From contig CP098528.1 of the NCBI GenBank assembly GCA_030440445.1, positions 248,001-312,000 of the forward strand: a stretch of 64,000 nucleotides of DNA, written 5' to 3'. The notes beneath the pieces were generated by a model. It had not been told where the DNA came from. It saw only the letters and a program-made list of their open reading frames with translations, and did no database searches. A program made the position numbers and the translations under genes. The stretch's first letter is position 1; each line of letters begins with the position of its first letter. The stretch comes from Halomonas sp. KG2. Lineage in GTDB: Bacteria; Pseudomonadota; Gammaproteobacteria; Pseudomonadales; Halomonadaceae. Shown piece after piece: positions 1,087-51,780 of this stretch.

Positions 1087-1947
1087 TTATTTCTCCGTCT
1101 CGGTCAGGCCTTTCACAAATAGGCGTTGCATAAACAGAATCACCAGTACCGGCGGCAGGGCGGCCATTACCACTGCGGCCATAATCAAATGCCACTGGGG
1201 ATTTTCTTCCGAAGTCATGCGCTGGATACCCATCACAATGGTGTAGTAGTCAGGATCGGTGGTGATTAGCAGTGGCCACAGGTATTGGTTCCAGCCGTAG
1301 ATAAACATGATCACAAACAGCGCGGCGATATTGGTCACCGACAGTGGCATCAAGATGTCTTTAAAAAACTTCAGTGGCCCGGCGCCGTCGACGCGAGCGG
1401 CTTCGAGCATTTCTTCGGGAATGGTCATAAAGAACTGGCGGAACAGAAACGTCGCGGTGGCCGAGGCAATTAACGGAATTGACAGCCCGGCAAAGCTATT
1501 GAGCATGTTGAGATCCGCAACGACCTGAAACGTTGGAATAATGCGCACTTCGACGGGCAGCATCAGCGTGATGAAAATTAGCCAGAAGAAAAACATCCGA
1601 AAACGAAATCGGAAGTAAACAATTGCAAACGCCGACAGTAGCGAGATCGACAGTTTTCCTACGGTAATCGCCATGGCCATAACAAAACTGTTCCATAGCA
1701 TCATGCCTGCTGGTGAGGCTCCTGCGTTGGAAACGCCGGACTGCCACATACGGGTAAAGTTTTCGATACCATGGGCGCCGGGCAGCATCGGCAGTGTACC
1801 GCGTAGCAAGTCGCCTGGCGCCTGGGTAGATGCCACGAGCGCAACGTACACGGGGAACACCACCACCGCGACGCCAATCATCAACGTCAGATGAGCAAAA
1901 AAATTCGCCCAGGGTCGGTTTTCAACCATTGAAAGTCTCCCAAACAA
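1087..1947 (-). CDS. ugpE: Glycerol-3-phosphate ABC transporter permease UgpE
   Basis: Inner-membrane permease of 286 residues with about six hydrophobic segments and the cytoplasmic EAA loop ([10 protein letters not shown], near residue 183) that docks onto the ATPase. With UgpA it forms the heterodimeric channel of the G3P importer. It lies between ugpA (13 bp upstream) and ugpC (1 bp downstream). Length and ending (VKGLTETEK) match UgpE of other Gammaproteobacteria. Confidence 0.93.
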
Positions 1948-1960
1948 TTAGCCAGTGGTG

Positions 1961-2845
1961 TTAGTAGTTCACGCGGCGCTCGATAAAGCGGAACTGCACC
2001 ACCGTGAGTGCGACCACAATGGCCATTAAAATCACTGACTGAGCGGCCGAAGAGCCTAAATTCAAGCCTACGAAGCCATCGGCGTAGACCTTATAGACCA
2101 GCGTGTTGGTGGCCTGGGCGGGGCCGCCTTGGGTAGTTGCGTGAATAATGCCAAATGTATCGAACATGGCGTAAACCACGTTAACGACCATTAAGAAGAA
2201 GGTAGTTGGCGTGAGCAGCGGGAAAATAATCGTCCAGAAGCGCTTAGTCGGGCTGGCGCCGTCAATGGAGGCGGCTTCAATCAGCGATTGTGGGATTGAC
2301 TGTAAGCCCGCTAGAAAAAATAGAAAGTTATAGGAGATCTGCTTCCAGGCGGCGGCAAAAATCACCAGCAGCATGGCGTCACTTCCCGAGTTGCGGTGGT
2401 TCCACTGATAGCCCACCATTTCTAGCATATAGGGCACAATGCCAATCGACGGATTGAAGATAAACCACCACAGCACACCAGCAATGGCAGGGGCAATCGC
2501 ATAGGGCCATACCAGCAGTGTGGTGTAGGTACTACGTGAGCGAATCATCCGGTTGACGGTGCTGGCCAATAATAGAGCCACCGTCATTGACAGGAGTGTG
2601 GTACCGACGGCAAACACCGCTGTCACGGAGAGCGAGTTAAGATAAGCGCCATCGCGAAACAGGCGAGCGAAGTTTTCCAAGCCCACAAACGTCGAGCGCA
2701 GCCCAAAGGCGTCTTCGCGCAATAGCGACTGATACAACGCTTGGCCAGCAGGCCAGATAAAGAAAATCAGCGTCACAATCACCTGGGGTGCCAGCAGCGC
2801 GTAGGGCAAAAAGCGACCAGGGTAGGTCATGCGTTTAGTTTGCAT
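1961..2845 (-). CDS. ugpA: Glycerol-3-phosphate ABC transporter permease UgpA
   Basis: Inner-membrane permease of 294 residues, MalF/UgpA type, with about six membrane segments and an EAA loop ([10 protein letters not shown], near residue 190). It pairs with UgpE. It is separated from ugpB by about 90 bp that hold a strong stem-loop, and runs closely into ugpE. Nothing unusual is seen. Confidence 0.93.
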
Positions 2846-2893
2846 GGGCAGCTCTGCAAATGGTTAGTAAATATAAGCATCGACAAACGAAAT

Positions 2894-2921
2894 CGCCGCC
2901 TACCCAGTGGGGTAGGCGGCG
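2894..2921 (-). promoter_or_regulatory. Intercistronic stem-loop between ugpB and ugpA
   Basis: A perfect 12-bp inverted repeat (CGCCGCCTACCC with its complement) around a 4-base loop. No long T-run follows, so it need not end transcription. In binding-protein transporter operons such hairpins often protect the upstream mRNA and lower permease expression; that role is inferred here. Confidence 0.7.
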
Positions 2922-2935
2922 AAGTGAGTACTTAT

Positions 2936-4261
2936 TTACTGGTTGGCAGCTTCAAAGTCACGGAGTAAATCATTACCACGTGCCACTGCGTCGTCAGCTG
3001 CTTCCTGGCCCGATTTGCCACCGGTCATCACGGCTTCCATCTCTTCGGAGATAATGTCGCGGATCTGTACAAAGTTACCAAACCGCAGTCCCTTCGAGTT
3101 CTCGGTCGGTTCGTTTAGCGTCATCTGCTTCAGTGAAATATCGGCGCCTGGATTCTCATCGTAGTAGCCCTGCTCTTTGCTCAAGTCCCATGCCGCTTGA
3201 GTGATGGGCAGGTAACCGGTTTGCTGGTGCCACTCGGCTTGTACCTCAGGCTGTGAGAGGTACTCAAAGAAAGCGGCAACGGCTTCATACTCGTCATCGG
3301 TGTGGCCTTGTAGTGCCCACAGGGTGGCACCGCCAATGATGGAGTTCTGTGGCGCGCCATCTACGTCGTCATAGTAGGGCTGCATACCGAAACCGACTTC
3401 AAAGTCAGAGTTAGCAGCGACATCCGCACGGGAAGCAGAAGAGCCGAAGAAAATCGCGCAGTCCTGGGAGTAGAACAGCGGCTCTGAGTCAGGGCCAGAA
3501 CCGGGGCCGCCCCACTTAAAGACACCCTCTTCCTGCCAGTTATGGAGGTTATCCCAATGGCGGGCGACCAGCTCATTGTTGAAGGTAAGCTCGGTTTCCA
3601 TGCCGCCAAAGCCGTTTTCCAGCGTACCAAGTGGCACGTTATGCCAAGCGGAGAAGTTTTCCAGCATTACCCAGCTAGGCCAGGAGGTGGTAAAGCCACA
3701 GCTGGCCGCCCCAGAATCGACGATTTGGCGCGAAAAATCGGCCACTTCAGACCAGGTTTGTGGCGCCTGCTCAGGGTCTAGACCCGCTTCCTCAAACATG
3801 TCCCGGTTGTAGTACATAATCGGCGTAGAAGAGTTGAACGGGAACGACAGCATGTTGCCGTTGGTGTCGGTGTAATAACCAACCACGGCGGGCAGGAAGG
3901 CTTCGCGATCAAACGCGCGGCCATGCTCTTCCATCAACTCGTACACCGGGTAGATGGCGCCTTTGGCGTTCATCATAGTGCCGGTGCCGACTTCAAAAAC
4001 CTGCAGAATATGCGGCTGCTCGCCCGCACGGAACGCCGCAATGGCGCCGGTCATCGTTTCGGTATAATTGCCGCGGTAGCTGGGTGTGACGTGGTAGTCG
4101 TCCTGAGAAGCGTTAAACTCCTCCGTCATTTCTTCAAGGATTTCACCAAGCTGGCCTCCCATGGCGTGCCACCAGGTCACTTCGGTCGCAGAATGGGCAG
4201 AAAGGCTAAACGTGGCCGTAGCCACCCCTAGGGCAAGCGCGTGCAATGTGAAACGAGACAT
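2936..4261 (-). CDS. ugpB: Glycerol-3-phosphate-binding periplasmic protein UgpB
   Basis: Periplasmic solute-binding protein that captures sn-glycerol-3-phosphate and glycerophosphodiesters for UgpAE. The start at 4261 is chosen because AAGGAG lies 6 bases upstream and it begins a clean signal peptide (MSRFTLHALALGVA, cleavage after AHS-A); a longer reading frame upstream would destroy this. The mature start TEVTWWHAMGG and the GNYTETMTGAIAAFRAG segment are typical of UgpB. 441 residues, usual for the family. First gene of ugpBAEC, divergent from argE. Confidence 0.94.
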   Translation of the reverse strand: MSRFTLHALALGVATATFSLSAHSATEVTWWHAMGGQLGEILEEMTEEFNASQDDYHVTPSYRGNYTETMTGAIAAFRAGEQPHILQVFEVGTGTMMNAKGAIYPVYELMEEHGRAFDREAFLPAVVGYYTDTNGNMLSFPFNSSTPIMYYNRDMFEEAGLDPEQAPQTWSEVADFSRQIVDSGAASCGFTTSWPSWVMLENFSAWHNVPLGTLENGFGGMETELTFNNELVARHWDNLHNWQEEGVFKWGGPGSGPDSEPLFYSQDCAIFFGSSASRADVAANSDFEVGFGMQPYYDDVDGAPQNSIIGGATLWALQGHTDDEYEAVAAFFEYLSQPEVQAEWHQQTGYLPITQAAWDLSKEQGYYDENPGADISLKQMTLNEPTENSKGLRFGNFVQIRDIISEEMEAVMTGGKSGQEAADDAVARGNDLLRDFEAANQ

Positions 4262-23125: not shown

Positions 23126-23390
23126 TACCCCCGACTTTTCGGACAAAACCTAGATTTTACTCCACCGGAGCGGATCAGGCAGCTGCGGCAGGATTTATGC
23201 CGTGTTTTCCTTATGCCCTGAACCCGTTGGCAGTTTTTGAGCAAGAGTACTAAAGTAAGTAAGTGGTATATTAGAAATCTCATTAGAATGTTTCTAAAAC
23301 AATAAGTTAGGATAGGGTGAGTAGCCTTCAAGATATCTTCCCATATTGGATAGGGCAGTGGACAAAGGCCCCGGACCCGTTAAAGGAATA
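23126..23390. other. Gene-free stretch inside the remnant
   Basis: About 265 bp with no supportable frame on either strand. It probably holds the promoter of the following gene; a 69-codon minus-strand frame here has no ribosome site. Confidence 0.5.
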
Positions 23391-24857
23391 ATGATTATGG
23401 AGCTTCAGGATAGCGGTAAAATAGTACAATCAATCTACTTTTCTCTACTTGGCCGCGCGGCAGACCCCGAAGGGTTTGGTTTCTGGCAGGAGCGGCTGGA
23501 AAGCGATGGACTTCAGGCCGTATTGTCTGAAATTGCGAGCTCGAAGGAAGCTCAGACGTACATGCAAGAGGCATCTGATAGCGAATATGTTGCTGACCTC
23601 TATGAGCAGCTGTTTGCTAGAGCGGCGGACACGGAAGGTCATGACTTCTGGGCTGGCAAGTTAGAAGCCGGTGAACTAAGTCGTGCAGAACTCCGCGGGG
23701 CTGTGATACAGGCCGCGGCAGACACTGATACAGAGGCTTTGAATGCCAAGCTGGCGGTTGCCGACTATTATAGCCAGAACGTATCAGCAGAGAATTACAG
23801 TGCCGAGCAGTCTCTGGTCATGGAGAGCCTTCACAGTAATGAACAGCTATATGCTGAATTGCAGCGCCTGGATACTGAGTACGAATCCATGGACCTTTCT
23901 CAGGTTGGAGAGTCCGTGGAAGGTAACCCGCTTTACAAAGCGGTAGTCGGTAGTGGACCCAAGACGCTGATGATTGCTACTCAGCAGCATGGGGACGAGC
24001 CGCTGGGAACAGAGGCGGCTTTGTATCTGCTGGACTATCTGGCAGGAGATAGTGCCGAAGCTGAAGCATTGCGAGAAGAGGTAACCGTAGTGGTCATGCC
24101 TCGAGTCAATCCTGACGGCTTTGCCCGCTGGGAGCAGCAGGTTGCAGGAGCGGAAGATGTGCTCGACCCGCGACGTAACTCGAATGACATTGATCTCAAT
24201 CGTACTTATGACCCCAACGAGGAGCAGAACCCTGAGCAGGCTCCTGAGTCGGCGGCGGTGAGAGAAGTCGTCAAGGAGTATCGGCCCGACTTATACCTCG
24301 ATTACCATCATCAGAACAACTACCGGTCTGAGGATGAGACGCTGGATAGCATGTCGGTGCTCTGGGCGACCAGCGATGAAGTGGAGCCTGCCTTGATGGA
24401 ATCGGGGCAGCGCGCTGTGGTTGCCATCAAGGAAGCCTTGGAAGACTTCGAGCATGACAGCCTGACCCTGTTCCCCGGTAGTGATAACCCGGCTATCAGC
24501 CGCAACGGCTTTGCACTTGATGGTACGCCCACGTTGTTGATCGAGCAGCGTGGACTCCAGGAGATGGATCAGCTTGCTCAAGGTCTTGACCTAGATTACA
24601 GCGCATTAGCTGCAGCTCTGACTCTGGAAGGGTGGCTCAGCATGATAGGTGTGATCGAGTTCATGGCATCGGGGGAGTTCGACTCTCTGGACCCGGCGAT
24701 TGCACAGCAGATAGCTGAACGCTCTGAATATGTCGACTTTGCTGACCTGTATAGTGACGATGCGGCTGTCGCGAATATTGCTGAAGAGGCAGGGGGCTTT
24801 GAAGAGGCCTTTCTGGCTGGAGTGTCGCAAGGTCTGGAGGATGGTCTAGTTGGGTAA
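23391..24857 (+). CDS. DUF4214 repeat protein with M14 zinc carboxypeptidase domain
   Basis: About 488 residues. Two DUF4214-type repeats open the protein (IVQSIYFSLLGRAADPEGFGFW and VADLYEQLFARAADTEGHDFW); such repeats are common in secreted, type I-exported proteins. An M14 domain follows with HGDE (zinc His/Glu, near residue 198), VNPDGF and DLNR (substrate carboxylate binding), a third zinc His in DYHHQ (near 304) and the catalytic Glu in LLIEQRG. No Sec signal is seen. AAAGGA lies before ATG 23391; ATG 23397 has better spacing. Strongly acidic. Carried by the older element remnant. Confidence 0.82.
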   Translation: MIMELQDSGKIVQSIYFSLLGRAADPEGFGFWQERLESDGLQAVLSEIASSKEAQTYMQEASDSEYVADLYEQLFARAADTEGHDFWAGKLEAGELSRAELRGAVIQAAADTDTEALNAKLAVADYYSQNVSAENYSAEQSLVMESLHSNEQLYAELQRLDTEYESMDLSQVGESVEGNPLYKAVVGSGPKTLMIATQQHGDEPLGTEAALYLLDYLAGDSAEAEALREEVTVVVMPRVNPDGFARWEQQVAGAEDVLDPRRNSNDIDLNRTYDPNEEQNPEQAPESAAVREVVKEYRPDLYLDYHHQNNYRSEDETLDSMSVLWATSDEVEPALMESGQRAVVAIKEALEDFEHDSLTLFPGSDNPAISRNGFALDGTPTLLIEQRGLQEMDQLAQGLDLDYSALAAALTLEGWLSMIGVIEFMASGEFDSLDPAIAQQIAERSEYVDFADLYSDDAAVANIAEEAGGFEEAFLAGVSQGLEDGLVG

Positions 24858-25055: not shown

Positions 25056-25181
25056 TTGTGGATAAGATAACTTGGTATATCCCCAGAATAGTGTGGATAA
25101 GTCTATATCCTATTAATCAGTTAGTTACGCTCTATCTTTCCGTTCTGCTTGTTGCTGGCTTTGCCTGCCTTTATCCTCACC

Positions 25182-25203
25182 TTGCTACCTATATGCTACC
25201 TAG
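25182..25203. repeat. Probable integrase arm-type site, left
   Basis: TGCTACCTA occurs twice in tandem (11-bp spacing) just before the integrase start. The same 22-bp element, one base different, lies at 60487-60508 near attR, and a variant lies in the old remnant. Paired direct repeats at both prophage ends suit integrase arm binding. Confidence 0.6.
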
Positions 25204-25223
25204 TTTTTACATGTGGAGTTTTC

Positions 25224-26573
25224 GTGGTCAAGAGCACGGATAAGGCTAAGTTAACCGCTCGTTTTTTATCAGAGCTTAGCAAGTCGCCACCAGGGAATGA
25301 CGTCTTTGATACCGAGCTTTCAGGGTATCACGTGCGCCACGGCACGCGTGGGTTGTCATTTCGACTTTACTACCGTTCTAAGTCGGGCAAGCAGCGCGTG
25401 CTCACTATTGGAAAGTATGGTGTCTATACCGCCGCCCAGGCGCGTGAAGCCGCACGCGAGGCATTGGCCGTCGTTGCCCAAGGCGGCGATCCCCGCGCGG
25501 TGATTGAAGAATCGAAAGCTGAAGCGGAACACCGGCAGCAACAAACGCTTAGATCTTACCTGCAGGCTGATTATGCTGACCACCAGAAACGTCGCAAGGA
25601 TGGCGACGCCACCTTGAGACGCATCGAAAATAGCTTTACCGAGTGGCTAGATAAACCCATGGATACGCTTAGCCTGGGTGATGTGGAGCGTTGGCAATCA
25701 AAAAGGGAAGCGGGAGCCCCAGATTCATCGCCACCGATAAAACCCCAGGCTTACCAAACCCTCAAACGCTCTTATGGCGCACTGCAAACACTGCTTAACC
25801 ACGCGGCTAAGCGCGGCGTTATTGCTCAAAACCCTCTAAAAGATATCAAGCTCCAGAAGCCAGCGCTGACGGACGACCAGCTCGAAGCGGATGAAGGGCG
25901 CCGTTACCTTGAGGATAGCGAGCGTGAAGCATTTTTTGCTGGTTTGGATGTTTATCAAGAGGAGAAGCGGGCGCAGCGAAGAAGCAGCCGGGCACATGGC
26001 AAGCGGTATTTACCTGACCTGGATGGGGTGGCCTATGTCGATCATGCCGCGCCGTGGCTGTTGCTGATGTATTACACCGGCTTTCGCCCCGGCGATTTGT
26101 TTGGGCTTCGTTGGCCGCACGTGAATTTTGAGTTTAAGAGTATTCGCAAGATCATCGAAAAAACCGCGCACCAAACCCCAGAGCCGCAAACTTTCCCGCT
26201 TTCAGATCCCGCCTTAGAAGTGCTTCAAACATGGTGGGAGCAGCAAGGAAAGCCCAGCAGTGGCTATGTGTTTTCATCACCTGTTACCGGCAAGCGGCTG
26301 GGCAAAGATGCAATGCGGAAACCGTGGAGGCGGGTTCGTGAGCTGGCAGGGCTCAACGAGGGAATGGTGCTTTATACGCTGCGCCATAACTTTGCGAGTC
26401 AGCTGGTGATGGCGGGAGTGGATCTTCTCACGGTGAGCAAGCTGATGGCCCACTCGGATATTCAGACGACGATCAAATACTACGCTCACCTCCAGCCCGA
26501 CCATAAGCGTAATGCGGTACAGCTGTTTGCTCAGATCGGGCAGGGGAAAGAGGTCATAGGCGAGTCGTTATGA
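25224..26573 (+). CDS. int: Phage tyrosine-recombinase integrase
   Basis: Catalyses integration and excision at tRNA-Pro. 449 residues from GTG 25224 (GGAG 6 bases upstream); the longer frame upstream overlaps the arm repeats. N-terminal DUF4102-like arm-binding domain (GLSFRLYYRSKSGKQRVLTIGKYG split as GLSFRLYYR…TIGKYG), SAM-like core-binding domain, and catalytic domain with Arg in YTGFRPGDLFGLRW, the LRHNFAS box (His/Arg), HSDIQTTIKYYAHL with the nucleophile Tyr. Its 3' end overlaps the convergent AlpA-like gene by 6 bp. Confidence 0.94.
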   Translation: MVKSTDKAKLTARFLSELSKSPPGNDVFDTELSGYHVRHGTRGLSFRLYYRSKSGKQRVLTIGKYGVYTAAQAREAAREALAVVAQGGDPRAVIEESKAEAEHRQQQTLRSYLQADYADHQKRRKDGDATLRRIENSFTEWLDKPMDTLSLGDVERWQSKREAGAPDSSPPIKPQAYQTLKRSYGALQTLLNHAAKRGVIAQNPLKDIKLQKPALTDDQLEADEGRRYLEDSEREAFFAGLDVYQEEKRAQRRSSRAHGKRYLPDLDGVAYVDHAAPWLLLMYYTGFRPGDLFGLRWPHVNFEFKSIRKIIEKTAHQTPEPQTFPLSDPALEVLQTWWEQQGKPSSGYVFSSPVTGKRLGKDAMRKPWRRVRELAGLNEGMVLYTLRHNFASQLVMAGVDLLTVSKLMAHSDIQTTIKYYAHLQPDHKRNAVQLFAQIGQGKEVIGESL

Positions 26574-34440: not shown

Positions 34441-35553
<1,113 letters not shown>

Positions 35554-42818: not shown

Positions 42819-43991
42819 TTATTCGCTGATGCGGGCGGCGAAGTCGACTAAATAGCAGTCGGTGATGCGCTGCTGAAAACTGAGGTTTTCGAGTGGCGGC
42901 ACCGGGGTGTAGTCGTAGTCGATGTAGAGCTTGCCGGATTTCAACACTTCGGGGCTGTTGAGGGATTCGTCGAACCACGCTGAGCCACCTAGGATGTAGC
43001 CGCGCCGTGTTAATTCGCGGAACTTTGCGTTGACGCCTTCGATGATGTCGCGCACTAGCGTGGGGTGCATGGGTTTGTCGATGGCCCATAGGTGCGCTTC
43101 GGCGATGGTGTCGGCGAGGACTTGCGCGGTGCGGGTGTAGGACTCGAATGCGAAGAGGGGTTCTTCTGAGCAAGTGCGTGAGCCCCAGAAGCGGAAGCCG
43201 CTTTTGTTGATCAGCGTGGTGATGTCGGCGGCGTTGAGATATCCGGCATCGGTGGCGGGATCTTGCAGATCCCACGACAGGTCTTTGGTGACTCCCGTTA
43301 CGCCGTTCACGGGCATGTTTGAAAGCGTCTTGTGCCAGCCGATTTGATTGTCGAGTTTTGCGCGGTGGCCTAGGGCTTTGGCGACAGCGGAGAGGGGGCG
43401 GGTTTCTTCGGCATCAACATCGAACGCTTGGAAATTGGGCCAAATCACCATCACTTCGCGTTGGCCAAAGCCTTCGCGGTACATGCTGGCGTCTTCGATG
43501 GTTTCGCAATCAAACGCACTGACATAAGCGAAGGCGCGCAGCTGCTGGGCGATGCCTGCTAGCTCTGCGGCGACGCTTTCGTTGTCGAGTTCCGGCACGC
43601 CAAGTATGCGCGGCTTAACGCCTAGCTTTGTTTCAGCGGCGGTGAGCGCTTGCATGCCGAGCTTTTGGCCGGTGGTTTCATCGACGCCGCCGATAATGTT
43701 GGCGGTGGTGGCTTCGTCGTCGGCACCTTCTTCTACGCGGACGACGACGCACACGGCGCGGGTTTCGCTAACAATAGCGGAGAGCGTGCGGCGTAGCGTG
43801 CCGCCTTCGCCCGCGTTGCCAATGGCGGCGTATATGTCTGTGACCAGTACGGGGGTGTTGAGCGGGAACGCGGTTTCATCGGCGTTTGGTGCGGTAACGA
43901 CCATGCCGATCACGGCGGTGGAGACCGTGCGGATGGGGCGCGTTCCTTCGTTGATTTCGACGACGCGGACGCCGTGATGGTAATCGGGCAT
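42819..43991 (-). CDS. FI: Major tail sheath protein gpFI
   Basis: 390 residues, P2 FI family: MPDYHHGVRVVEINEGTRPI at the start, GFRFWGSRTCSEEPLFAFES late, and C-terminal sheath region (ENLSFQQRITDCY). Contractile sheath, which shows the phage is a myovirus. First gene of the FI-D operon, about 100 bp below the late box at 44089. Confidence 0.95.
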   Translation of the reverse strand: MPDYHHGVRVVEINEGTRPIRTVSTAVIGMVVTAPNADETAFPLNTPVLVTDIYAAIGNAGEGGTLRRTLSAIVSETRAVCVVVRVEEGADDEATTANIIGGVDETTGQKLGMQALTAAETKLGVKPRILGVPELDNESVAAELAGIAQQLRAFAYVSAFDCETIEDASMYREGFGQREVMVIWPNFQAFDVDAEETRPLSAVAKALGHRAKLDNQIGWHKTLSNMPVNGVTGVTKDLSWDLQDPATDAGYLNAADITTLINKSGFRFWGSRTCSEEPLFAFESYTRTAQVLADTIAEAHLWAIDKPMHPTLVRDIIEGVNAKFRELTRRGYILGGSAWFDESLNSPEVLKSGKLYIDYDYTPVPPLENLSFQQRITDCYLVDFAARISE

Positions 43992-44088
43992 TTGCTTGTC
44001 TCCTGCGCAGGTTCAAGCGGGTTATTCGGTTTGGCTTGCTAGTGGTGCCATGGTGAGAGGGTTACGCGCGGGAGGGTAGTGGTGAGCG

Positions 44089-44110
44089 TTGTGCGACGAG
44101 GGCTAGACAA
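44089..44110 (-). promoter_or_regulatory. Late-promoter activator box upstream of FI
   Basis: TTGT-N14-ACAA dyad, with a shared flanking block (ACGCGCGG-AGGGTAG, from 44063) also found at the V box. The position equals that of the P2 FI late promoter. Probable Ogr target. Confidence 0.75.
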
Positions 44111-44120
44111 GATGGATGTA

Positions 44121-44143
44121 AAAAGCCCGCCGATGGCGGGCTT
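44121..44143 (-). terminator. Rho-independent terminator after the tail-fibre genes
   Basis: AAGCCCGCC-ATC-GGCGGGCTT followed by T residues on the minus strand, 15 bp past the end of the 257-residue gene. It ends the V operon just before the FI promoter box. Confidence 0.88.
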
Positions 44144-44157
44144 GGGGGAGTGACCTT

Positions 44158-44931
44158 TTATTGCGGTCCTGCTGGAATACCATGCAATCCCATTAGAAAA
44201 TTTTCTATCGATTTGAGCAGCACTTCATTTTCAGGAGCACTTAGATCAGCATTTACAATGCCCAGCTCGCCCCAACTTCCGCGACACGCATAAAAAATTT
44301 GATAGTCGTTCGCGCCAAATCCTGTTCCTAAAGGTCTTTTATCGTCTGACTGGCTAACGATCTGGCCGCCATCTCGCAGTTGCATGCCGTATTTAGTGCT
44401 GAATGTCAGTGTGAACAGCGAGGGGCTGGCTCTGTCCGCTAAACTAACGTCGACTTCAGGCAGTCGATACGCGCCTTCCACTGTTCTTTCTTCCGTTTCA
44501 AAAACTCGGAATAACACTCCGTTTTGTGAAATAGCAACATTTAACGCTATATCACTCTCATTTCCCGAAGCTCCCATGATGACACGCTGAACGAGCTGAT
44601 CGTTAGCTACCCATCCTGGCCCTTTTATAAAAAACAACGTCCAGGCATCTGGATTTATCGGCCCGCCAACGTTTTTTAACAGACTGTTTTGATAAATCTC
44701 AAACAATCCGTTATCAACATTAAATGCACCTTCAGACTCTGCATGCGTTCGAAATTGCGCCATGTTTCGTACGCTAAACTTATCAGCAGATACATTTGAG
44801 TAATCTGGTTTCAGGTATACGGTTAGTTCTGTTGCATTACCCATTACGTCGTCGTCATCGATACGAGTGATAACAGGTAATCCATTTGTGTTCTTTATGT
44901 CGACTCCGTGCACGACTTGATAGCTTCTCAT
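44158..44931 (-). CDS. Tail-fibre-associated protein with lectin-like features (257 residues)
   Basis: Occupies the place of P2 gene G (fibre assembly) but does not resemble it. Beta-rich sequence with a LamG/concanavalin-like rhythm (LFEIYQNSLLKNVGG, WTLFFIKGPGWV, SLFTLTFSTKYGMQLRDGG, NDYQIFYACRGSWGELGI) and a helical end (NEVLLKSIENFLMGLHGIP). Markedly AT-rich. Overlaps the fibre gene by 4 bp. Probably a receptor-binding or fibre-cap protein; this is inferred. Confidence 0.65.
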   Translation of the reverse strand: MRSYQVVHGVDIKNTNGLPVITRIDDDDVMGNATELTVYLKPDYSNVSADKFSVRNMAQFRTHAESEGAFNVDNGLFEIYQNSLLKNVGGPINPDAWTLFFIKGPGWVANDQLVQRVIMGASGNESDIALNVAISQNGVLFRVFETEERTVEGAYRLPEVDVSLADRASPSLFTLTFSTKYGMQLRDGGQIVSQSDDKRPLGTGFGANDYQIFYACRGSWGELGIVNADLSAPENEVLLKSIENFLMGLHGIPAGPQ

Positions 44932-47075
44932 TGCAAACCCCCTAATTCATCGACTAGATGTTGATCATAAAATGCTTTGATAGTTGATCTGAAGTTTTTG
45001 TTATTAAACTTCAGCGCGTCTTGTCGGTAGATTCCGAACTCACTTGCTAGCGATGTTACCGATTCAAAATAAATTCCTGGCACGTTTTTCTCTACACTCC
45101 AGTAAGTTGCGATAAAACCGCCGCCGGAGTCCGACACTTGATTAATTGGTACTTGAATATCGTCAGTCAAATAGGGGAATTCAGAACGTATATATCCTGT
45201 TAAATCCCTGCCTACTTTTCCTAATATCAATCTTTCCCGAGCGCCGCGTGCACCCACCCAGCTCGCAAACGTGCTCACGTCTAGTCGAGTGTGATTGTGT
45301 AGGTCGATATACAAAAACGCATTGGGATAACTGTCCGGCAGGCTCATAGCGACTTGCGTCTCTATCTCAGACCCCGGTGCAGGGCCGATATACATGTCAT
45401 CAGTCGGATCTGTAGACCCAGACTCTCCCCATTCTGCGGGCGCGTTTCTGTTTGCATCGACACCGTTGGGATTTTTTCTAACATTTTCCTGACAGCCGTA
45501 CGGAACCATGCAAGGCACAAAAACAACTTTAACTCCGAATCTAAATGTTCTAGCCAGTTCGTCAGAGTGCCAGCTATTACATAAATCATGTGCAAACTGC
45601 AGCGATACGAACGCGCCAGTTTTTTCTATTCCGTGAGTCCCACTAACAATCACGATGCTCGGCAACCGTGTTGCGTTATCGGGTATCGGATACGATACAC
45701 TTTTTCTCAAATCTGGCGGCGTGAACTCATACGCATAAATTGGGTTGCCGACACTATCCGTATCTAACAGCACTCTAGTGATGTAGTCCGGATTGTTTTC
45801 CATCAAGCTGTCGTAATAGCCATACCATGTAGCTAGGTCTGGAAGCGCTTCTAGTGGAAATGCATTAAAAAACGGGCTGCTATAATCACGGCGTTTTTTA
45901 ACTTGATCATAATTAAGATAGAGCTCCCCATCACTTGCCGATCTTTCGTTAATCTCTAGGCTGTCAAAATCTCCGCCACCCACCATTTTTTTTCCGGTGG
46001 GGTCGATGCCGTGAAATATAATTCCTTTTTTATCAACTTTTGCGTATGTCGGCTGATCATCTGATGTGTATAACGCTTTAATCAGCGGAACGATAGGCTG
46101 TCTATTCTCATCAATGGCGTACAAATCAATGCCATTTTCATTTTTGATAGAAAAAACAGGATCGTCATCCTTACGTATTAAACCCTTTCTAGCGGGATTG
46201 ATTTGATAACCCTGTCGATCCCAGGCAGCTAAATATTGTCCCGACTTAGTCGTAATACCGTACAAAGGGCTGTCTTCCTCATCTTTATAAAGCCCACTAC
46301 GTAAACCGCCCGCAAGCCCTGCCATTCCTTGAACCACTTCAAGTCTCTGACGAACTAATTCAAATGCCTTGTGGCTCGGATAAGCTCCATAAAAATCCGC
46401 AACACCCCCCTCGTTTTTGTAGAGTGCGACTAAACTTTCTTCGTTTTGCAGCGATACCCAAAAGTAATCATCATCGCTAGTCGCTGTGATGCCCGCTTGC
46501 TCGCTGTTGAAAATACCGACGGCAAGCTGGGCAATGTCGCGGGCGACTTCGGCGCGTTCGACTGCGTCGTCGAGCATCGTGAGCGCGTGCGGAATGGCAC
46601 TTTCTAGCACCCATGCACGCGTGGCCATCACTTGCGATGGATCGATCTTTAGCTGGACAACAGACGCTTCGCCAACCTCTAGAATTGAGCGAACTAGTAG
46701 ATCCGCTTCAACGGCGGTAGCTATTGGTTTGTAGGTTTCTGGATAAACGCCGATGGCGATCAAGTCACCAGCAATGTCAAAGATACCTACTTCGCGGATG
46801 TACCAGCCACCCACCTGCGTTGGGATGAGCCCTTCGGTCACGACCCAGGCGGGGTTGTTGGGATCAACATCCACTAGGTTTAAATCGTCTGACCAGTGTT
46901 GATTCACGAGTGATGAGCGCTGCTTTAGCGCGTCACGGTCGTATTGGTCATAAAAATTCGGGCCGCCGCCATCGCCTACGGCCATGCTTTGCGGTTGCAG
47001 GGCTGGGCCGCCGCTGAGTGCGGCGACGACTTTGGCGAGGCCTTTCGTTGTCAGCATTGTGTAGTAGTCGGCCAT
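44928..47075 (-). CDS. H: Tail fibre gpH with C-terminal M14-type zinc hydrolase domain
   Basis: 715 residues. Residues 1-195 are the conserved gpH N-terminus (MADYYTMLTTKGLAKVVAAL; DPSQVMATRAWVLE) that attaches to the baseplate. A variable linker follows. Residues about 400-700 carry a complete M14 signature: zinc HGIE (GTHGIEKTG, near 480), NPNGVDANRN (near 540), zinc His in DLHNH (near 592) and catalytic Glu in IYFES (near 668). This suggests a fibre that trims a cell-surface amide or peptide. The C-terminal part is AT-rich compared with the N-terminus. Confidence 0.85.
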   Translation of the reverse strand: MADYYTMLTTKGLAKVVAALSGGPALQPQSMAVGDGGGPNFYDQYDRDALKQRSSLVNQHWSDDLNLVDVDPNNPAWVVTEGLIPTQVGGWYIREVGIFDIAGDLIAIGVYPETYKPIATAVEADLLVRSILEVGEASVVQLKIDPSQVMATRAWVLESAIPHALTMLDDAVERAEVARDIAQLAVGIFNSEQAGITATSDDDYFWVSLQNEESLVALYKNEGGVADFYGAYPSHKAFELVRQRLEVVQGMAGLAGGLRSGLYKDEEDSPLYGITTKSGQYLAAWDRQGYQINPARKGLIRKDDDPVFSIKNENGIDLYAIDENRQPIVPLIKALYTSDDQPTYAKVDKKGIIFHGIDPTGKKMVGGGDFDSLEINERSASDGELYLNYDQVKKRRDYSSPFFNAFPLEALPDLATWYGYYDSLMENNPDYITRVLLDTDSVGNPIYAYEFTPPDLRKSVSYPIPDNATRLPSIVIVSGTHGIEKTGAFVSLQFAHDLCNSWHSDELARTFRFGVKVVFVPCMVPYGCQENVRKNPNGVDANRNAPAEWGESGSTDPTDDMYIGPAPGSEIETQVAMSLPDSYPNAFLYIDLHNHTRLDVSTFASWVGARGARERLILGKVGRDLTGYIRSEFPYLTDDIQVPINQVSDSGGGFIATYWSVEKNVPGIYFESVTSLASEFGIYRQDALKFNNKNFRSTIKAFYDQHLVDELGGLQ

Positions 47076-47083
47076 GGCGGCTC

Positions 47084-47779
47084 CTAGATACTCGGGTAGA
47101 TGGTGGTTTGCCCACTGGCGTGCTGTCCGGTGCCGATTGTGGTCGGCCCAGGCACAGCGAGCTGCCGAGGGTGGTAGGGCGTGAGGGTGATAGTGGTACT
47201 GGCGTGCTGGCCTGCGCCTATCGCGGCGGCACCGTTGGTGGTGAGGTGCGAGGGGCGATAGGGCTGTAATGTGATGTTGCCGCTGGTGTGTTTGCCTGCG
47301 CCTAGCCGTACGTTGCCTCGCGTTGTTGTACTGATTTGCGTGGGGTCAAAGTGGGCGCTTAGGCGTTTGGCGCGGTTTATGCCGGTGATAAGTTCGTCGT
47401 AGCTTTTTTGGCTGATGCCGACGCCGTCGAGGTCTAGCACTAGGCGGAAGTGGCCGGGCTGGCCTTGGTAATCAAACCATTCGGCGATGTCGCCACCCTC
47501 AATGCCGTGCATGCCGATGACTTGACGCAGTGCGCCGAGGGTACCCGCGCGGCGGCGAATGTTGAGGGCGTTTTTCACTTCGGCGCGTTTGCGCGCTTCG
47601 CTCCACTCGTCTGACCATTGGCGCACGCCCACGGCCCATGCGAGCCAGGGCAGTAGGTGCCCTGCTATACGGTCGGCGTCCCACAGTGTGTCTAACTCGA
47701 CATCTATTGGGCGGTCGGTGACCTGCTCGATGTCGCGTTCAAGCGCCGTGGTGTTGGGTGGTAGCAGCGTTTTAGTCAT
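47084..47779 (-). CDS. I: Baseplate/tail protein gpI
   Basis: 231 residues, P2 gpI family (ALERDIEQVTDRPIDVEL, LLPWLAWAVGVRQWSDEW). The C-terminal part holds near-repeats (TTRGNVRLGAGKHTSG, GAAAIGAGQHASTT, GPTTIGTGQHASGQ), a tripled GAG-H-SG pattern not needed for the core function. Between J and H as in P2. Confidence 0.92.
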   Translation of the reverse strand: MTKTLLPPNTTALERDIEQVTDRPIDVELDTLWDADRIAGHLLPWLAWAVGVRQWSDEWSEARKRAEVKNALNIRRRAGTLGALRQVIGMHGIEGGDIAEWFDYQGQPGHFRLVLDLDGVGISQKSYDELITGINRAKRLSAHFDPTQISTTTRGNVRLGAGKHTSGNITLQPYRPSHLTTNGAAAIGAGQHASTTITLTPYHPRQLAVPGPTTIGTGQHASGQTTIYPSI

Positions 47780-48614
47780 GTAGCGCTACCTCCACGTTTG
47801 AGCAATACGCGGCCTGAATTGCTGAGCGGGGGATATCTGCTGTAGGGCTATTCAGGAGCACGCGCTCGACGCCTTCGACGTAGAGCGCAGCGAGAACGGC
47901 ATCTTGAAAAATGTCATCGCCCAGGCGATGGCGGCGTTCTGCGAACTCGACCGCTGAGGCATGGGCGGCGGCGCGGACGACGTCGGGATCTGGCCCCGGC
48001 CGGATGATGAGCGCGGCGGATATTGCGTAGTTTTGTACGTCTGCGCCTATAACTGTGACGCGATCCGTTAACGGGCGGACGAATTCGGCATTTAGGGCGT
48101 TTTCGACGGTTTCGATTAGCTCCGGCGATGCGGTGCCGTCACCCGTGTTGGCCAGGACGGCAACGATGACTTCCGTGGCTTCGGGGCTGGTTGCTGATGC
48201 GTCTTTTACTTGGGCATCTGCGCTTAGCGCGTGGTAGATATAGGCGGCTTCAGCACCGGCGGTGCTGAATCGGTCGGGCGCTAACAGCAGGCGGCGGCGG
48301 TAGGCGTCGTCGCTTTCGCCGTCAAAGCGGGCGGTGAAAAAGTAGGTGACGCCGATGTGGTCGAGGGCGTCGCCGTATGAGTATGCGAGCAGTAAGCGGC
48401 GGACGCGTTGATTGTGGCGGTGGCGGTTGATCATTTCGCGATACGCGACCACTTCTAGCAGCTTGTTGACCGGTTCGCTTTCTAGCTGCAGTACGTCTGC
48501 TATATCGGGCGAGCGGTCGAGTAGGTCGGCGCGTAGCTCGGTCAGGATCTCTTCAAAGCTGAGTTCGTCGAGCAGCGTGGGCGTGGGCAGTCTCGATAGG
48601 TCTATTGTGCTCAT
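47772..48614 (-). CDS. J: Baseplate protein gpJ
   Basis: 280 residues, P2 gpJ/T4 gp6-like baseplate wedge (LSFEEILTELRADLLDRSPD, HIGVTYFFTARFDGESDDAYRRR). Edge of the baseplate. Overlaps W and I by a few bases. Confidence 0.93.
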   Translation of the reverse strand: MSTIDLSRLPTPTLLDELSFEEILTELRADLLDRSPDIADVLQLESEPVNKLLEVVAYREMINRHRHNQRVRRLLLAYSYGDALDHIGVTYFFTARFDGESDDAYRRRLLLAPDRFSTAGAEAAYIYHALSADAQVKDASATSPEATEVIVAVLANTGDGTASPELIETVENALNAEFVRPLTDRVTVIGADVQNYAISAALIIRPGPDPDVVRAAAHASAVEFAERRHRLGDDIFQDAVLAALYVEGVERVLLNSPTADIPRSAIQAAYCSNVEVALHD

Positions 48615-50988: not shown

Positions 50989-51217
50989 GAATGATTCCCC
51001 TATCGATTACGCGTTCGTTTGCCGTTAGCTCGCCCAGACGTTGTTCGACGTGCGCGGCGATCTCGGATTCGCGCGCCATGGCGGCGTTAATGGCTTGCTG
51101 GGCGGCGCGTTCGGCGGTTAGGGCGTGGCTGTCGTTTTGCCAGTTAGCTACCTGCCAACCGGCGGCAAAGGTGATGGCTAGGGCGGCGGCGCTGGCTAGG
51201 AAGGTGAGTTTTTTCAT
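50867..51217 (-). CDS. Rz-like inner-membrane spanin (LysB-like)
   Basis: 116 residues: an N-terminal membrane anchor (residues 5-22), then a periplasmic coiled coil (ALTAERAAQQAINAAMARESE) and a C-terminal region. It overlaps the amidase stop by 4 bp and shares 122 bp with the Rz1-like gene. Confidence 0.85.
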   Translation of the reverse strand: MKKLTFLASAAALAITFAAGWQVANWQNDSHALTAERAAQQAINAAMARESEIAAHVEQRLGELTANERVIDRGIIREIQKPIYQRVCLEPDAIRLLNHAAAGTAPDSAELDDTLP

Positions 51218-51780
51218 GCTGCTTTACCCACGCATACCGCTTCGATTAGCACATCGCCAACGGCCTCTACGCAGGCGTCGATGTTTTCAATGTAGCTTTT
51301 TAGGTCGTTTTGATTGGTGAGGAAAAACAGCTCGACGATGATGCCTTTGCCGCGACTGATGAACGCTAGGCGGCTGTGCTGGCCGGAGGTTTCGCCTTTT
51401 GCGCCACGATTGGCAATACCTAGTGTCTTTGAAATAGCGACACACAAAGCATTGCCAATGGGGTAGTGATGCGCGGCGCTTAAAGTTTCGACACCAGTGG
51501 CGGTTGGGTTGGTGAATGCGTTGCAGTGAAATTCGACGGCGATATCATGCTCGGCGGCGCGGTTAGAGGCGACAGTGAGCGGTAGGTTTTGGCCGCGTTC
51601 GCCGTCTTTGGTGAAGTAGACCTTTTCGCGCAGGTAGTCCGCTAGCCGGTCGCGAAAATCTAGCACCACTTGGGCTTCTGTGAATCCGTTTGCTGCTGCG
51701 CCGGGGTCTTTGTCGCTGTGACCTGCTGAGAAAAACAGCGAAAGCCGCTGCAGCGCGGCGTATTTGACGAGGGCTTGCAT
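51214..51780 (-). CDS. Endolysin, N-acetylmuramoyl-L-alanine amidase
   Basis: 188 residues, Amidase_3 family. Zinc ligands: His in SAGHSDKDPGA (near 21), Glu in TEAQ (near 33), His in VEFHCNA (near 93); catalytic Glu in IIVELFFLTN (near 160). No signal peptide, so release needs a holin. P2 uses a different lysozyme-like endolysin in this slot. Confidence 0.92.
   Translation of the reverse strand: MQALVKYAALQRLSLFFSAGHSDKDPGAAANGFTEAQVVLDFRDRLADYLREKVYFTKDGERGQNLPLTVASNRAAEHDIAVEFHCNAFTNPTATGVETLSAAHHYPIGNALCVAISKTLGIANRGAKGETSGQHSRLAFISRGKGIIVELFFLTNQNDLKSYIENIDACVEAVGDVLIEAVCVGKAA

Follow-up and report, generated by a model that had tools for sequence, protein, structure and literature searches.

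A P2-type phage tail fibre gene of Halomonas sp. KG2 combines a collar-fibre anchor with a predicted M14 zinc-carboxypeptidase domain

The window analysed here, a stretch of 64,000 nucleotides from Halomonas sp. KG2 (contig CP098528.1, positions 248,001 to 312,000), encodes a phage tail fibre of the gpH type in which a Phage_tail_fib anchor (PF12571) and a Peptidase_M14 domain (PF00246) are fused within one open reading frame (ORF; Table 1). The protein matches the definition of a P2-type gpH both by its N-terminal domain and by its place after the J and I genes, as the preliminary description of this DNA had proposed when it called the product a P2-type fibre. That description had also placed the enzyme in the C-terminal third; the C-terminal position holds, yet the domain extends over the last 44% of the protein. 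Anchor and enzyme are separated by a linker and three tandem repeats of 36-38 residues, which probably form a beta shaft. The similarity of repeats 1-2 and 2-3 was matched by only 1/2000 and 0/2000 shuffles, respectively, while that of repeats 1-3 is weak (69/2000).

Several lines of evidence identify the C-terminal part of gpH as an M14 domain. It was recognised by the Pfam model for Peptidase_M14 (69.3 bits, 5.4e-19; cut-off 21.6), narrowly by the related DUF2817 model (24.2 versus a cut-off of 23) and, over residues 417-594, by PHROG 4722, ‘zinc carboxypeptidase’ (7.4e-26). The motifs HGIE, NPNG...NR, DLHNH and IYFES are all present in the order previously claimed, i.e. with the HxxE...H ligands in sequence and the presumed catalytic glutamate near the C-terminal strand. 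A strict M14 pattern occurred in 0/20,000 shuffles of gpH, which rules out a chance origin of these motifs; a loose pattern would by itself have been insufficient, since it was found in 296/20,000 shuffles. Structure prediction, the check suggested at the outset, yielded an M14 carboxypeptidase fold, and structural comparison agreed, with the thrombin-activatable fibrinolysis inhibitor (TAFI) and carboxypeptidases A, B and O as the best matches. In a profile search, the best solved relatives were carboxypeptidases A/B (1.9e-24; MpaA, 8.6e-12), whereas with gpH alone as the query MpaA came first (8.3e-6). The NCBIfam model for MpaA (NF007897) matched residues 473-554 at 5.5e-5, below its cut-off (22.3 versus 157 bits). 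A uridine phosphorylase match (residues 121-204; 0.0063) and one to Cas8b_C were taken as chance.

The presumed active site is conserved among the closest relatives. In an alignment of gpH with three fibre-type relatives (A1), which are 29-78% identical to it across the M14 domain, seven key residues (H481, E484, R533, N542, R543, H593 and E671) are identical in 4/4 rows; 55/316 columns are invariant, which gives the seven a hypergeometric p of 3.5e-6 that ignores the relatedness of the rows. The same residues are identical in 9/9 rows of a larger alignment (A4), where 22/316 columns are invariant (p = 2.9e-9, again ignoring relatedness). A4 leaves out L018, a near copy of L017, together with L007, L008, L009, L010, L011, P0002 and P0004-P0007; conservation is lower in alignments A2 and A3, which take in some of these sequences. 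Judged by its sequence, the gpH domain is thus supported as carrying a full set of predicted zinc, catalytic and carboxylate-binding residues, and it shares with the M14 carboxypeptidase A/B group the counterparts of R127, N144 and R145. In carboxypeptidase A, these three residues have substrate-related roles, the N144/R145 pair binding the free carboxylate of the substrate. Because gpH keeps the corresponding pair, its sequence suggests a substrate that ends in a carboxylate.

Table 1. Features of the gpH locus, with positions in the window
Feature	Position	Strand	Details and basis
gpH-type tail fibre gene	44928..47075	-	715 aa (amino acids); PF12571 + Peptidase_M14 within one open frame
P2-type collar-fibre anchor, residues 1-153	46617..47075	-	Phage_tail_fib PF12571, 5.1e-41
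Linker, residues 154-258	46302..46616	-	aligns with P0001 and P0003 from residue 188 (BLASTP)
Three tandem repeats, residues 259-368	45972..46301	-	36-38 aa each: 259-296, 297-332, 333-368
M14 zinc-carboxypeptidase domain, residues 400-715	44931..45878	-	profile, PHROG, predicted fold
H481-G-I-E484, predicted zinc ligands	45624..45635	-	motif, alignment
R533 ... N542-R543, counterparts of carboxypeptidase A R127/N144/R145	45447..45479	-	alignment; roles described in part in PMC6506827
H593 in DLHNH, predicted third zinc ligand	45297..45299	-	motif, alignment
E671 in IYFES, predicted catalytic glutamate, E270 counterpart	45063..45065	-	motif, alignment
Tail_P2_I, gpI	47084..47779	-	upstream of gpH; Pfam
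Baseplate_J protein, gpJ-like	47772..48614	-	upstream of gpH; Pfam
257-aa partner protein	44158..44931	-	overlaps gpH stop (ATGA); occupies P2 gpG place
Tail sheath FI	42819..43991	-	next gene downstream of cassette
Low-GC cassette: linker part, shaft, M14 domain, partner gene	44150..46450	-	40-53% GC (guanine plus cytosine)

Together with its tail genes, the window encodes an integrase (25149-26573), gpA, capsid, terminase and portal, and the region from about 25.1 to 58.8 kb therefore looks like a P2-like prophage. Downstream of the partner ORF, the P2-like tail operon continues with genes for tail sheath, tape measure and gpD. GC content is about 58-62% downstream of the low-GC cassette and over gpI/J; since that of the PF12571 anchor is intermediate (52-58%), the upstream edge of the cassette is gradual. 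No promoter or terminator pattern was seen within 43900-44300, and comparison of the DNA with phages and plasmids returned short gene-level matches only. At E≤1, the 257-aa partner matched neither PHROG nor NCBIfam families, and its sole Pfam match, to Galactosyl_T at 0.2, was taken as chance. Searches of Pfam, PHROG and NCBIfam did not place it in a known chaperone family, nor did these profiles recognise a gpG-type assembly chaperone gene after gpH. Its predicted model (mean predicted local distance difference test, pLDDT, 52) resembled beta-sandwich lectin-like folds with very different functions. The C-terminal part is perhaps a concanavalin-like lectin fold, an assignment that is tentative given the poor model.

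Relatives of gpH point to an exchange of modules. From residue 188 to near the C-terminus, gpH is 62% identical to P0001 and 36% to P0003 (BLASTP), and both of these carry the M14 domain behind different N-termini that lack PF12571. P0001 and P0003, in turn, share an N-terminal motif with fibres of the same genus that bear other C-termini, namely a GDSL hydrolase (L074; 9.7e-20), a Peptidase_S11 domain of the D-alanyl-D-alanine-carboxypeptidase type (L075; 3.4e-18) and, in L073, a weak SASA-like match below the cut-off (0.014). The link from gpH to fibres with other modules runs via P0001, P0003 and L012, the last of which matches L073 at 1.5e-7. The low-GC island, the M14 relatives and the same-genus fibres with other C-termini together support the view that the shaft, the M14 domain and the partner form, along with part of the linker, an exchanged host-recognition cassette upon a conserved P2 anchor. 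The S11 fibre (L075, also L105; 841 aa) belongs to another prophage-like region of this genome (C1:1356500-1361700, locus 1557-4082, minus strand), two genes from a tape-measure gene; it has a P0001-type N-terminus and SMTK and KTG motifs. P0002, a 570-aa protein with the precomputed label pair PF12571+PF00246, is nearly identical to gpH and ends early owing to a frame change inside the M14 domain. P0002 may derive from a different assembly of the same organism; phase, decay or sequencing are possible causes of the change. Besides, IMG/VR holds M14 on a BppU_N-type protein, i.e. on an alternative anchor (L017, which was scanned, and the nearly identical L018).

M14 domains on phage tail proteins are not unprecedented, being already annotated in databases under PHROG 4722. 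Relatives of the domain occur in 36/50,697 phage records (E≤0.01), 18 from Staphylococcus, 13 from Bacillus, two from Stenotrophomonas and one each from Halomonas, Acinetobacter and ‘Phage f2b1’, with some GenBank/RefSeq pairs counted apart. Five of these loci were inspected. Four of them have the M14 gene surrounded by annotated tail genes, while in L007, the fifth, its neighbours are unnamed genes, a metalloendopeptidase and a holin, none in the stretch being annotated as tail. Of the 308 phage records with any match, none spans 80% of gpH at a single locus, though a fusion with one more divergent half could escape such a search. IMG/VR contributed seven M14 loci, six of which were scanned with Pfam, revealing one PF12571+M14 fusion (L012) besides the BppU_N protein L017. 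L012, on a virus contig, and L002/L020, in genome G021, encode one identical 713-aa protein and were counted once. Across 82 genomes of the genus, a full M14 fibre was found only in the genome studied here and in G021; in six others, the match (E≤1e-5) was confined to the N-terminal motif or to a portion of the domain. When individual proteins served as queries, two scans of viral sequences detected no relative. A profile scan of genome contigs was likewise negative with A1; repeated with A4, it yielded 43 loci (25-43% identity), of which 23 are titled as metagenome-assembled genomes of the Gastranaerophilales type. Among 390 genomes of the order, 114 had a match at E≤1e-10 (best besides gpH itself, 1.5e-26), which we take, from the ORF lengths (260-450 aa for many, 550-900 aa for some), to be mostly ordinary cellular M14 enzymes. 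Protein-database searching over word-selected candidates gave three matches in 2,622, and a second search at least seven among the 8,000 listed.

Three of the phage loci have neighbours of their own interest. In Halomonas phage YPHTV-1 (L008, 5699-10284), the annotated zinc carboxypeptidase is followed by O-antigen ligase and O-acetyltransferase genes, an order that would be in keeping with a phage that modifies its receptor. Halomonas phage vB_HboP_4908 (L072, 5576-6676) carries an annotated ExoZ directly behind a P2-type fibre and its DUF4376 neighbour. Staphylococcus phage StB20 (L010, 6503-10207) has, in one tail module, genes for an M14 tail protein and a PghP-type poly-gamma-glutamate hydrolase, separated by a single gene.

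We lean, if only by a little, towards gpH being a receptor-trimming fibre whose M14 amide hydrolase acts on carboxylate-bearing groups of a surface glycan. The PF12571 anchor would attach gpH to the baseplate, and linker and three-repeat shaft would project the M14 domain to the fibre tip, a position deduced from the domain order. During adsorption, the zinc-bound domain would then clip an amide-linked, carboxylate-bearing group, such as an amino acid borne by a uronic acid or a comparable acyl or peptidyl substituent, off the outer surface glycan of the host. The receptor would thereby be modified and the glycan backbone left uncut, in parallel to the O-deacetylation by the spike of phage G7C, while the overlapping, probably lectin-like protein would accompany fibres of this type as a partner. 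Substituents of the required kind are described in the available part of one source, which lists a Microbulbifer capsule with N-acetylgalactosaminuronic acid amidated with D-alanine, and mannuronoyl-L-alanine of Pseudoalteromonas among the glycan amides of marine bacteria (PMC3210612). Likewise, the accessible passages on the G7C spike present its non-depolymerising receptor modification as needed for infection (PMC10743462, PMC13123978). A narrower version, which we regard as rather doubtful, has the fibre trimming C-terminal amino acids joined by amide bonds to the uronic acids of a surface glycan. As an M14 and an S11 fibre occur in one host, both might, despite unrelated catalytic chemistries, act on a single aminoacylated polymer, perhaps one bearing D-alanine.

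A number of observations count against the proposed enzyme and its cassette. Only H481, E484 and N542 of the seven key residues are invariant across the nine rows of the wider alignment A2; according to the alignments, L008 carries a lysine in place of R533, AbIPP1 is without counterparts of R543 and H593, and both AbIPP1 and P0004 are degenerate at zinc and arginine positions. In distant rows, moreover, the counterpart of E671 varies with the alignment. Residues 636-657 of gpH, where Tyr248 of carboxypeptidase A would be expected, contain no tyrosine, although the register is uncertain there, and the predicted structure contains no metal. Finally, gpH gave no direct BLASTP match to L073, L074 or L075 at E≤1e-3.

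Among the three targets suggested by the preliminary description, amide-substituted surface glycans fare best, peptidoglycan stems can be entertained, and poly-gamma-glutamate is disfavoured. That gpH trims stem peptides in the manner of MpaA as the tail meets the wall would agree with MpaA being the top solved relative of gpH on its own and with its NCBIfam match, and 31/36 phage records (GenBank/RefSeq copies counted apart) stem from phages of Staphylococcus or Bacillus, whose wall is exposed. Yet this MpaA match stays far below its cut-off, carboxypeptidases A/B clearly outrank MpaA by profile, and the prophage has an endolysin of its own (51217-51780). A gpH fibre remains outside the outer membrane, and with a host that we assume to be Gram-negative, based on the P2-like prophage and its relatives, stem peptides would be hard to reach; we thus consider a peptidoglycan enzyme unlikely. 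Alternatively, the domain could remove N-acyl (or O-acyl) groups from amino sugars instead of releasing amino acids. A fibre whose N-terminal motif is related carries a GDSL hydrolase, SGNH fibres remove O-acetyl groups, and AstE_AspA_cat matched 6/10 proteins scanned, two of them (L007, L013) just above the cut-off. This family was, however, unreported for gpH at E≤1, and the N542/R543 pair would rather serve a free carboxylate, which makes a deacylase distinctly unlikely. It appears improbable, too, that the M14 fold has been retained merely as a receptor-binding surface devoid of catalysis: the losses in AbIPP1 and P0004 indicate that decay occurs in this group, and the metal-free model would be compatible with it, but gpH and its three fibre-type relatives, 29-78% identical to it over the domain, retain the whole set of seven residues.

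The two remaining substrates have still less in their favour. The best fold matches are true protein carboxypeptidases, as would befit a fibre that shortens a protein receptor (pilin, flagellin or outer-membrane protein) from its exposed C-terminus; against this, a related fibre of the genus carries in the same place a GDSL domain, for which the part of the literature available describes a glycan-type activity in other phages (PMC13123978), and we regard a protein receptor as very improbable. A poly-gamma-glutamate hydrolase like PghP of phage PhiNIT1 seems hardly credible at all. PghP is portrayed as structurally related to carboxypeptidase A (PMC4497714, PMC6506827), and StB20 encodes its M14 tail protein near a PghP-type one. 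However, PF05908, the PghP-type family, was unreported for gpH at E≤1, and gpH keeps the carboxypeptidase residue set where PghL, according to the accessible text, has other residues in place of R127/N144/R145 (PMC6506827). In addition, a search of the host genome at E≤0.001 detected neither CapC (PF14102) nor PGA_cap (PF09587), while among 14 control genomes it picked them up in one and seven, respectively.

Compared to known systems, receptor trimming by gpH would be closest in operation to G7C gp63.1 and the SGNH prophage fibres, in which likewise a non-depolymerising enzyme is described on a receptor-binding protein (PMC13123978, PMC10743462). gp63.1, though, is a serine esterase acting on O-acetyl esters, whereas gpH is a predicted zinc amide hydrolase. 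To the metallocarboxypeptidases of the A/B group (TAFI/CPB2, CPB, CPA and CPO, as well as bacterial carboxypeptidase T), gpH is 13-21% identical and differs from them in riding on a phage fibre shaft and, within the uncertainty of the register, in lacking the Tyr248 equivalent. The annotated phage M14 proteins (StB20, Bacillus Page/Palmer, Stenotrophomonas BUCT702, Halomonas YPHTV-1) have the domain in common with gpH, and the StB20 ‘zinc carboxypeptidase’ is annotated as a tail protein, but their N-terminal parts are unlike gpH, and the StB20 and Palmer types have long insertions. PhiNIT1 PghP and Bacillus subtilis PghL are reported as phage-derived zinc peptidases with a carboxypeptidase A-like fold (PMC4497714, PMC6506827), yet they belong to PF05908, use other substrate-binding residues and, in the case of PghP, were characterised as a 23-kDa enzyme purified from culture supernatant. 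The tape-measure protein of phage T5 is said to contain a zinc carboxypeptidase (PMC11445458), which would lie inside the tail and not on a fibre. With P2 gpH itself, the protein shares the anchor and the J-I-H gene order; it differs by the C-terminal enzyme and by the partner without family match where P2 has gpG.

In the open-access literature searched, we found neither an experiment on M14 phage tail proteins nor a paper on the P2-fibre/M14 fusion or its cassette, and a class of amino-acid-trimming, receptor-modifying phage enzymes was not met. A figure legend in one review states that carboxypeptidases are rarely produced by phages (PMC6116005), and the fibre enzymes named in the parts of the literature available are mainly depolymerases and O-deacetylases. 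In gpH, the fibre ends in a complete-looking zinc carboxypeptidase domain in place of these more familiar enzymes, which cut sugars or remove acetyl groups. If the proposed role is true, phages would also read and remove amide-linked substituents of surface glycans, gpH might serve as an enzyme for mapping such substituents, and tail proteins annotated merely as ‘zinc carboxypeptidase’ would gain a testable function, with gpH relatives that bear other C-terminal modules as a natural comparison set.

Two further genes in the window deserve mention. A chromosomal gene for a protein combining DUF4214 and Peptidase_M14 (23346-24857, plus strand) lies some 290 bp away from the integrase of the prophage. 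Its product, the one M14 match besides gpH that the genome yielded at E≤0.001, has no BLASTP match to gpH (E≤1e-3). Near an S24-type repressor gene, an ORF at 34441-35553 (plus strand) shows a BRCT match, a sub-threshold WYL match and a weak PADLOC match to PDC-S48 (8.8e-9).

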